Under the pieces are notes generated by a model, which did no database searches, was not told where the DNA came from, and saw only the letters and a program-made list of their open reading frames with translations. From assembly GCA_020351775.1 (NCBI GenBank), contig CP070666.1:4016548-4075177 (forward strand): DNA of 58,630 nt, read 5' to 3'. This DNA is from Gemmatimonadota bacterium (GTDB lineage: Bacteria > Gemmatimonadota > Gemmatimonadetes > Gemmatimonadales > GWC2-71-9). Numbering within the stretch: position 1 is the stretch's first letter; every line of letters starts with the position of its first letter. The translations under genes and the position numbers were made by a program. Shown here piece after piece: positions 30,894 to 34,422 of the stretch.

Positions 30894-31829
30894 GTGCTCT
30901 GGTTGTTCCTGATCATCTTTGTTCCGGGTGGCGCCCTGGCGGTGTTGTGGCTCGTTGGCGAGCGCGGTCACGTCATATTACCCTCCACTCGAGCCGCAAT
31001 CCGCCAAGGACGAGGTAATGCTACTCGTGGAACAGCCGTCAGGGCTGTGCATGGGTACGTGTATGCACGGTGGCCCTACCAATACATCAAGTTCTACATC
31101 AGCAGGTTGCTGCCGCATATGTCGGCCGGATTCAAGCGGTGGTGGGCCGATCACTATCACGGCAAGGTGCTGCCCACGGAGCTAGCATGTGAGATAATCA
31201 GATTGGATCACGACATCAGGCGGACGGATCTAGATCAGGTCATTCCCTATCCGATGGCGCGTGACATCGTGCTCAACAGTTCGCCTGCCGTAACCTTGCT
31301 CGAATGTCCGTGCCGGCATGCCCGTGAGAACCCGTGCCAACCGACAGACGTGTGCATGATCGTAGGTGGTGGTGACTTCGTGCTGGAACACCATCCCGGC
31401 CGGTCACGTCGAGTCACACAACGAGAGGCGCTCGACCTGTTGAGAGCTGAGCACGAGCGGGGCCACGTCCATACTGCGTATTTCAAAGACGCGTGCGACG
31501 ACCGCTTCTACGCGATCTGCAACTGTTGCTCGTGTTGTTGCGGTGGGCTCGAGGCCATGGTAGAACATGGCGTCCCGATGGTTGCGTCATCGGGTTACGT
31601 GGCACAGGTCGATGAGTCGGCCTGCATTGCGTGCGGTGATTGTGAAGCCGCTTGTCCGTTTCACGCGATCTCGTTGAACGGAAAGTCGGCCGTAGACTGG
31701 GAGAAGTGTATGGGATGCGGAGTCTGTGCCGGTCGGTGTGAAATGGACGCCGTCACACTGATGCTCGATGAGCGCAAGGGAGTACCGCTCGACGTGCGCA
31801 CAATCGGGGTGCCGGCATCGGCGTGTTGA
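30894..31829 (+). CDS. Membrane-anchored 2[4Fe-4S] ferredoxin-like protein with extra Cys clusters
   Basis: A 311-residue protein from GTG 30894, with AGGAG six bases upstream. One N-terminal membrane helix is followed by a soluble domain with two unusual cysteine clusters: ECPCRHARENPC...VCM near 140-155 and CNCCSCCCGG near 205-215. Two ferredoxin motifs then follow, CIACGDCEAACP and CMGCGVCAGRC. The first clusters likely bind another metal or Fe-S centre. Proteins with this pattern are annotated only as 4Fe-4S proteins. It is likely an electron-transfer subunit. The HEAGH fusion gene begins 10 bases after its stop, so the two are likely co-expressed. Confidence 0.85.
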   Translation: MLWLFLIIFVPGGALAVLWLVGERGHVILPSTRAAIRQGRGNATRGTAVRAVHGYVYARWPYQYIKFYISRLLPHMSAGFKRWWADHYHGKVLPTELACEIIRLDHDIRRTDLDQVIPYPMARDIVLNSSPAVTLLECPCRHARENPCQPTDVCMIVGGGDFVLEHHPGRSRRVTQREALDLLRAEHERGHVHTAYFKDACDDRFYAICNCCSCCCGGLEAMVEHGVPMVASSGYVAQVDESACIACGDCEAACPFHAISLNGKSAVDWEKCMGCGVCAGRCEMDAVTLMLDERKGVPLDVRTIGVPASAC

Positions 31830-31839
31830 CCCAGGCCTC

Positions 31840-34422
31840 ATGGATCCTGCCTCACGCCTGACACCTAATGCCAGAATCGCGTTGACGGCGATCTTAGCAG
31901 TGTACGGTGTCATGATTCTGCGTGATCCGGCTCATTTCCGGATGCTGGACCATGTCGATCTGGCAATCCACGAGGCTGGTCACGTGTTCTTTGGGCCGCT
32001 TGGTGAGTTCATCGGCCTTCTGGGTGGGACGCTCCTACAGCTGATGGTTCCGACGGCTTTCCTAGGGTATTTCCTGTACCACGGCAATCAACATGCTGCG
32101 TCGGTTCTGCTCTGGTGGGTGGCGCAGAATCTGTGGAACATCTCCGTCTATATCAAGGATGCCAGAAGCCTGGAGTTGCCACTTGTGGGCGGTGGCGAGC
32201 ATGACTGGGCACACCTGCTCGGCGAGCTGGGATTGCTGCATCGTGATCAGACGATTGGCCAAACCGTATATCTTGCGGGAGTCTTGCTCTTCACCTTCTC
32301 GATCGTGTGGGGTCTCATGACTGCTCGGGTCAAGCGCAACGGGAATGAGCGCCGTGGCACCACAGTGCTGCTCGCAGTTCTCCTACTTCCGTGTGTCGTG
32401 GGGTGCGATGCGCAGCGAGACGATTCGATGCCAGGCGAGATCGACGCTCAGCTGTGGCAGACGATGCTCACGGCCGAGGACGCGCGCGCGGAGACTGCGG
32501 AAGAGATGTCACCGCTATATCAAGGCTTGCGGTCCGAAGATCCCGTGGTTCGCCAGATTGCAGTCCGAGCCTTGGGCCGGCTGGAGCGGCCGGCTCTGGT
32601 ACCGTCCATAGTGCGGTTGCTGACGGACTCCGCAGCCAGCGTCCGGGCGGAGGCTGCAAATGCGCTGGGTCAGGCGGTGTATCGCGGTGGAGCCTCCGCT
32701 GCGGTTGCTCCGCTGTTGAGCAGGCTGCAGGCGGAGAGTGATCCACACGTCACTGGTGTTTTAGGCCAGACACTTGGACGTCTACCGTACGAGTCCTCCG
32801 ACACGGTCAGGTTGGTCGAGGCTGCCCTGGTCGGCGTCACTGGTGCTGCTGAAACGGCCACGCTGGTCGGAATCGCCCGGGGGTTGGAGTCCTTGATCCG
32901 CCGGCAGGGGAGATCCAACCCGCCGACACCCGGTACCATCGCAGCCTTGAGCGCTTTGTCCGTGTACTCCGTGGGATCCGGCTCGGGTCGGTTGGCCAGC
33001 CACGCGGCTCGAATTCGACGCTTGGCAACCGCAGCCCTGGTGCGTAGTGGTGCGGGTGCCGATCTACCCCAGCTGCTGCTCTCGGATCCAGATCCCGGAG
33101 TGAAGCGCTTGGCTGTAGCAGGGGCCGCTGCGATTGAGCCAGCAGCACGCCGCGCACAGGTTATAGGCCTCTACCTTGCGGACCGGTCTGCGGCGGTCCG
33201 GTATGCGGCGCTGCAAGCGTACGGCAGATACGTGCAGCCCACGGAGGGCTGTGAGCCGGTGCGTGAGGCGCTGAGCGACGCCGATCCACACGTCGCGTTG
33301 CTCGCTATCGATCTCCTGGGAAACGGTTGCGGAGCAGACGAGGAAGTTGCAGAGACGCTACTGGGTATCGCCGACTCGCTGTCGCGGGATCGTACGTGGC
33401 ATCGGCCGGCTCACGCTCTAGTCTCGTTGGCCAAGGTGTCGCGAATACCGGCGGAGCTGTTGCTGCCGCGGTTCACCGCACACGAATCGTGGTGGGTACG
33501 CATGTATGCCGCGCGCGCGGCCAAGGAGATGGGTCTGACCGGGAGTCTGCGCCGGCTGGCGTTCGATCCCCACGACAACGTGCGCCAGGTGGCGATTGCG
33601 GCACTCTCCGAGCTGGAGCAACACGAGGCGGACTCCATATACATCGCTCAGCTCGTGCGTCCCGACTACCAATTGGTGATGACCGCTGCGCAAGCGCTTG
33701 AAGGAAGTAACAAGGCGGCCAACGCGATGCCGGCTCTGCTCGGAGCGCTGGCTCTGGTCACGGCCGAGCAGCGGGAGACATCACGCGACGTGCGCCGTGC
33801 AGTCATACGGCGGGTCGAGGAACTCGGGGGGCCAGCCCAGGCAGAGGCGCTAGAGCCCTATCTCGGGGACTTCGATCCGGTGATTGCGAGTGAGGCCGCA
33901 AGGGTGCTTACCGGGTGGACGGGAACGCGGTATGGTACCGCCCCGTCGCCGCTTGCGGCGGAGCCACTACCCTCTTATCGGGAAATCAAGGAACTGGCGG
34001 ATTCGCGTCCCGTGCTGGTGATGCGTGGTCTGGGAGACATCGAACTCCGGTTGCTGGCGTTCGAGGCGCCAGCCAATGCGGCACGCTTTGCTCGCCTGGC
34101 TCGAGCGGGCTATTTCGACGGCCTCACGTTTCACCGCGTGGTCCCGGGCTTCGTCATCCAGGGCGGCAGTCCCGGTGCCAACGAGTACTCTGGTGATTGG
34201 CCTTACACGCGCGACGAGCTCACCATGCGTTCTCACCTGCGTGGCACGGTGGGCGTGTCGACGCGCGGCCGTGATACCGGCGACGGTCAGATATTCGTGA
34301 ACCTAGTGGACAATCCCCGGTTGGATCACAACTACACGATCTTCGCTGAGGTGGTAGACGGTATGGAGCTGGTGGACCGGCTGCTGGAAGGGGCGACCAT
34401 AGGGCGCATCGTGTGGCGCTAG
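31840..34422 (+). CDS. Fusion of membrane HEAGH domain, HEAT repeats and cyclophilin
   Basis: An 860-residue protein from ATG 31840 with no internal stop. Residues 1-160 form a multi-helix membrane domain with HEAGH (44-48), LGGTLLQL and LPLVGGGEHDW, resembling membrane metalloprotease-like proteins of unknown function. Residues 160-189 look exactly like a lipoprotein leader (Met160, a hydrophobic core, VVGC at 189). About 210-700 is a HEAT-repeat solenoid (SEDPVVRQIAVRALGRLE and similar). The C-terminus (about 715-860) is a cyclophilin domain ([32 protein letters not shown]). Such lipoproteins and HEAGH proteins normally look like separate genes. Here they share one frame, so translation gives a fusion, possibly alongside an internal start at 32317. 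Confidence 0.85.
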   Translation: MDPASRLTPNARIALTAILAVYGVMILRDPAHFRMLDHVDLAIHEAGHVFFGPLGEFIGLLGGTLLQLMVPTAFLGYFLYHGNQHAASVLLWWVAQNLWNISVYIKDARSLELPLVGGGEHDWAHLLGELGLLHRDQTIGQTVYLAGVLLFTFSIVWGLMTARVKRNGNERRGTTVLLAVLLLPCVVGCDAQRDDSMPGEIDAQLWQTMLTAEDARAETAEEMSPLYQGLRSEDPVVRQIAVRALGRLERPALVPSIVRLLTDSAASVRAEAANALGQAVYRGGASAAVAPLLSRLQAESDPHVTGVLGQTLGRLPYESSDTVRLVEAALVGVTGAAETATLVGIARGLESLIRRQGRSNPPTPGTIAALSALSVYSVGSGSGRLASHAARIRRLATAALVRSGAGADLPQLLLSDPDPGVKRLAVAGAAAIEPAARRAQVIGLYLADRSAAVRYAALQAYGRYVQPTEGCEPVREALSDADPHVALLAIDLLGNGCGADEEVAETLLGIADSLSRDRTWHRPAHALVSLAKVSRIPAELLLPRFTAHESWWVRMYAARAAKEMGLTGSLRRLAFDPHDNVRQVAIAALSELEQHEADSIYIAQLVRPDYQLVMTAAQALEGSNKAANAMPALLGALALVTAEQRETSRDVRRAVIRRVEELGGPAQAEALEPYLGDFDPVIASEAARVLTGWTGTRYGTAPSPLAAEPLPSYREIKELADSRPVLVMRGLGDIELRLLAFEAPANAARFARLARAGYFDGLTFHRVVPGFVIQGGSPGANEYSGDWPYTRDELTMRSHLRGTVGVSTRGRDTGDGQIFVNLVDNPRLDHNYTIFAEVVDGMELVDRLLEGATIGRIVWR

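Follow-up and report, generated by a model that had tools for sequence, protein, structure and literature searches.

In a bacterium of the Gemmatimonadota, a HEAGH membrane domain is joined within a single open frame to a HEAT-repeat protein that ends in a cyclophilin, and the same fusion is found in a second species of the genus and nowhere else in the genomes that we searched. A preliminary description of this DNA had proposed a genuine fusion, and the one-frame join that it reported is confirmed: the frame occupies exactly positions 31840-34422 (+) of the window (the whole 58,630-nucleotide stretch that was analysed), runs for 860 codons and has no internal stop. The HEAGH membrane domain comes first, followed by a short linker, a hydrophobic stretch with a lipobox Cys, the HEAT repeats and finally the cyclophilin (Table 1). 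HEAGH residues 44-48, Met160 (32317) and Cys189 (32404) all lie where they had first been placed. We think it probable that the fusion is real and arose in the ancestor of the genus, when two unlinked genes, one for an uncharacterised HExGH protein of the inner membrane and one for a HEAT-cyclophilin protein that is exported, were joined to give an anchored, periplasm-facing product.

Table 1. Features of the fused gene, its upstream neighbour and genes near standalone HEAGH genes. Unless a locus is named, positions refer to the window.
Feature	Residues	Position	Strand	Evidence or remark
4Fe-4S ferredoxin-type protein, upstream		30894..31829	+	10 bp before the fusion; context, membership in the system putative
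HEAGH membrane domain	1-164	31840..32331	+	invariance across 56 sequences; AF2 mean pLDDT 93
Met160 ATG, possible internal start	160	32317..32319	+	conserved in G051
Linker	165-175	32332..32364	+	poorly conserved, gap-free; site of the stop codon in standalone HEAGH genes
Fifth hydrophobic segment, with lipobox VVG-C at its end (Cys189, codon at 32404)		32359..32406	+	sequence, hydropathy
HEAT repeat region	~223-700	32506..33939	+	Pfam HEAT_2, HEAT
Cyclophilin domain	730-852	34027..34395	+	Pfam Pro_isomerase, 97 bits
DUF2911 or relatives near HEAGH genes		L044 424-1359; L045 3597-4430; L046 4989-6065; L050 4918-5766; L052 959-1807; L033 6943-7476; L035 2759-3286		

The fused frame in a second species

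The genome of the window (G000), assembled as one contig of 5.5 Mb, has 1 HEAGH copy. A second genome of the same genus, G051, contains the same fused frame, of 859 aa. The two proteins are 67% and 64% identical in their two halves and align ungapped across the junction; over their full length there is a single gap, of one residue, within the HEAT repeats. Synonymous sites between them are near or beyond saturation. In residues 1-164 dN/dS is ~0.09, and in the cyclophilin pN is 0.13 versus a pS of 0.81; substitution patterns thus indicate that both halves are under purifying selection. The linker has diverged between the two species, yet it has acquired neither stops nor changes in length. Because G051 matches without a gap at near-saturated synonymous divergence, the fused frame must have been kept over a long period. 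The refuter named at the outset, a sequencing error (or an assembly error) hiding a stop near 32300, found no support and can be dismissed, since the diverged G051 has the same open frame. In G052, the third genome of the genus, a contig end falls inside the HEAT region, so that the junction is not covered. The fused gene is thus seen in the DNA of two genomes.

A ferredoxin-type gene lies directly before the fusion in both G000 and G051, in the same order. In the window, its product starts with a hydrophobic N-terminal segment, matches Fer4 and carries the extra Cys motifs CPCRHARENPC and CNCCSCCCGG.

Two genes that are unlinked elsewhere

HEAGH is present in 104 of the 288 genomes of the order and also at 59 loci in genomes from many phyla; the plasmid records that we searched held no HEAGH relative. 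Nearly all of those compared stop soon after the membrane domain: 95 of 97 distinct sequences end 4-52 residues past the last membrane helix (the equivalent of residue 158), and the only 2 that read on are those of the congeners G000 and G051. Some standalone HEAGH genes lie in long open frames; these were considered as further fusions and rejected, as they extend upstream only and none is C-terminal. On the stretches retrieved, no relative of the HEAT-cyclophilin half lies beside the other HEAGH genes. That half stands alone in ~27 other genomes of the family, in frames of ~670-800 aa with the same domain order and 39-55% identity over nearly the whole part, and is not linked to HEAGH. Where both genes occur separately (G034, G035, G091, G092 and G093), they sit on different contigs, except in G091, where they are ~52 kb apart. 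The suggestion that a linked pair had fused is thus not supported. In fact, given that the two genes are separate elsewhere, the fusion joined two unlinked genes.

Besides its full HEAGH gene, G034 has a partial copy (residues 5-53; L030, G034:C131:9536-9682) ~3 kb away, which may be a duplicate that has decayed or an effect of the contig end. Standalone HEAGH genes at Bacteroidota-type and Gemmatimonadota loci have, next to them or close by, genes for DUF2911 (PF11138, assigned by a test of the copy at L033) or its relatives (Table 1), which may be linked in function to the HEAGH family.

The HEAGH membrane domain

In 56 diverse HEAGH members, H44, E45, G47, H48, F51, G55, G62, G63, P71, Y104, D107, H121 and D122 are invariant. 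The AF2 model of the domain, of high mean confidence (Table 1), has helices at 9-28, 35-54, 56-80, 84-106, 122-129 and 133-162; H44-H48 lie inside predicted helix 35-54, and D107, H121 and D122 bracket loop 107-121. Putative metal ligands are among H44, E45, H48, D107, H121 and D122, and their positions along the predicted helices and loop would fit a metal site. Standalone members from Gemmatimonadota, Thiohalocapsa, relatives of Geobacter, Bacteroidota and others share the helices and these six invariant residues, and differ from the fusion in having no fused partner.

The preliminary description had spoken of a metalloprotease-like site. The invariant HExGH, D107, H121 and D122 and the confident domain model agree with such a site; neither a matching PDB fold nor homology to M50 came to light. 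M50 site-2 proteases (PF02163, PF13398) likewise carry HExGH in a membrane helix. Their third ligand is an Asp in a second conserved motif, and the candidates for it in the HEAGH family, the invariant D107, H121 and D122, lie in a different motif. Residues 1-167 gave nothing above cut-off in Pfam, searches of Pfam, NCBIfam, PHROGs and the PDB with the HEAGH half were likewise empty, and Foldseek of the model against the PDB returned nothing at E 0.001. Neither PF02163 nor PF13398 was among the profile matches of any of the 56 members, and hhalign of HEAGH against an M50 alignment built from relatives gave a probability of 7% with the motifs not aligned. (PF13398 had one clear member in these relatives, too few for an alignment, and DUF3267, PF11667, taken as a comparator, had zero.) On these grounds, the family is not filed under M50. 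Judged by these searches, the membrane half is a widespread family with no Pfam, NCBIfam or PDB match.

The HEAT-cyclophilin half

Pfam HEAT_2 (PF13646) matches this half with 113 bits in five stretches, the best at 224-312, and the cyclophilin domain scores far above the curated cut-off of 21.7 bits for Pro_isomerase (PF00160; Table 1). The best solved relative of this domain is 2mvz (E 2e-26). In the alignment with 2mvz, the catalytic Arg and the Phe/Gln core are kept (FHRV...GFVIQGG), and the positions that we take to be Trp121 and His126 of human CypA are Arg and Tyr. By profile and core residues, this part is a predicted cyclophilin-type PPIase. It resembles the PpiA/PpiB cyclophilins but is placed after HEAT repeats.

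The leaders of the standalone HEAT-cyclophilin proteins, read by eye, are signal-peptidase-I-like, often end in an AxA-Q-like motif and show no lipobox. Thus, on the leaders compared, the lipobox Cys is specific to the fused form, which also differs from these proteins in its HEAGH domain. Since the standalone orthologues carry cleavable Sec-type leaders, the HEAT-cyclophilin half is predicted to be exported in both settings. The genome of the window has, in addition, a second and distant HEAT-cyclophilin frame of ~690 aa (G000:C1:5396524-5396901), and comparable distant relatives occur across the family.

The junction

The hydrophobic segment, the lipobox Cys and the next Asp are kept in both species (VVG-C then Asp in G000, LTA-C-D in G051), and the preceding linker is not. 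A Cys that ends a hydrophobic segment in this manner is typical of bacterial lipoproteins, but here the leader is internal unless Met160 is used as a start. In E. coli, lipoproteins of the inner membrane are marked by an Asp next to the lipidated Cys, a rule that is weak in other bacteria (PMC6469965). The stretch before the lipobox helix is basic in G000; the corresponding n-region of G051, MTARSQPSDSESG, contains a single basic residue against two acidic ones, and this scarcity of positive charge makes the topology of the G051 protein less certain.

The point of fusion can be placed by comparison with the closest standalone HEAGH protein, that of G034, whose tail reads WGLWSARAKPAVKEK-stop where the fused proteins have WGLMTARVKRNGNERRGTTVLL and WGFMTARSQPSDSESGLTTVLL. 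The MTAR of the fusions aligns with the WSAR of this tail; MTAR is thus native HEAGH tail, and the two genes were joined immediately downstream of it. The full-length structure model (mean pLDDT 64) is unreliable around the junction and over the C-terminal third and shows no domain contact; its low quality past the HEAGH domain reflects an input that contained no relatives of the C-terminal half.

How the fusion may work

To explain these results, we propose that translation from the HEAGH start codon would meet no stop before 34422 and give a single chain. Charges and helix count suggest that the HEAGH domain would sit in the inner membrane, its N- and C-terminal ends both cytoplasmic. The former signal peptide would then act as an extra in-to-out segment, delivering the HEAT-cyclophilin part to the periplasmic face, where it would stay anchored either by the uncut helix or by a lipid, after lipoprotein signal peptidase had cut before Cys189. 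There, the HEAT array may hold an envelope client while the cyclophilin isomerises its prolines. In the weakest step of the proposal, the HEAGH domain, should it prove to be a metalloenzyme, might work on that substrate or on one nearby. The most likely product is thus an inner-membrane protein with HEAT-cyclophilin on the periplasmic side. In fact, the uncut, internally started and cleaved forms would all put HEAT-cyclophilin outside a membrane, most simply the inner one. PpiD of E. coli is an inner-membrane-anchored periplasmic prolyl isomerase with a parvulin domain and a single N-terminal helix. The proposed product would resemble it as an anchored isomerase facing the periplasm, but the sequences are unrelated and the fusion is not a member of that family.

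One version of this explanation, which we hold tentatively, is that the precursor is made whole, lipidated and cut before Cys189 by lipoprotein signal peptidase, yielding a membrane HEAGH protein and a lipid-anchored HEAT-cyclophilin. Our confidence in the two overlaps, because the cut precursor is one form of the anchored product. VVG-C and LTA-C fit a lipobox in both species where the standalone leaders have no such Cys, and the basic stretch of G000 is leader-like, but two sequences are too few to claim selection on the Cys, and we found no such cleavage within a polytopic protein described in titles and abstracts, for the part of the literature covered.

The stop could instead have been lost by accident and without functional consequence, leaving the halves to act independently. 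We consider this unlikely. It would agree with the confinement of the fusion to one genus, with halves that are unlinked elsewhere and with the poor conservation of the linker, but such a linker has stayed free of stops and gaps through near-saturating synonymous divergence, and the leader type changed together with the fusion.

The preliminary description had also raised the idea of two proteins from overlapping starts. Met160 could be the start of an additional, separate lipoprotein, and it is kept in both species at equal spacing from the lipobox Cys; the mature part would begin Cys-Asp, and as the equivalent of residue 160 in G034 is Trp, the Met may be genus-specific. That the HEAT-cyclophilin lipoprotein is made mainly from Met160, behind a type II signal peptide of its own, alongside read-through, seems improbable to us, however. 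The ribosome site before Met160 is of background strength, with 31-39% of the gene's codons equal or better (a weakly discriminating measure here, as several clear gene starts nearby score low too), the n-region of G051 would make a poor signal peptide, and MTAR, as native tail, need not be a start.

We also think improbable a polyprotein-like envelope machine, in which a polytopic metalloenzyme of a new family would carry an internal lipoprotein processing site and release a lipid-anchored HEAT-cyclophilin beside it.

A new architecture for known domains

We found no paper on a HEAGH-HEAT-cyclophilin fusion in the part of the literature covered. The architecture is new, and the kind of system is not, because the fusion combines two known domains, HEAT and cyclophilin, with one unnamed family. 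Still, the in-frame fusion hints that HEAGH and HEAT-cyclophilin work together. The junction is moreover a clean case in which to ask whether a polytopic protein can be cleaved internally by lipoprotein signal peptidase. If the halves cooperate, a role could be proposed for the HExGH family on the periplasmic side of the inner membrane, beside a prolyl isomerase. Thus, a widespread family with neither a Pfam or NCBIfam entry nor a solved relative would gain such a proposal.
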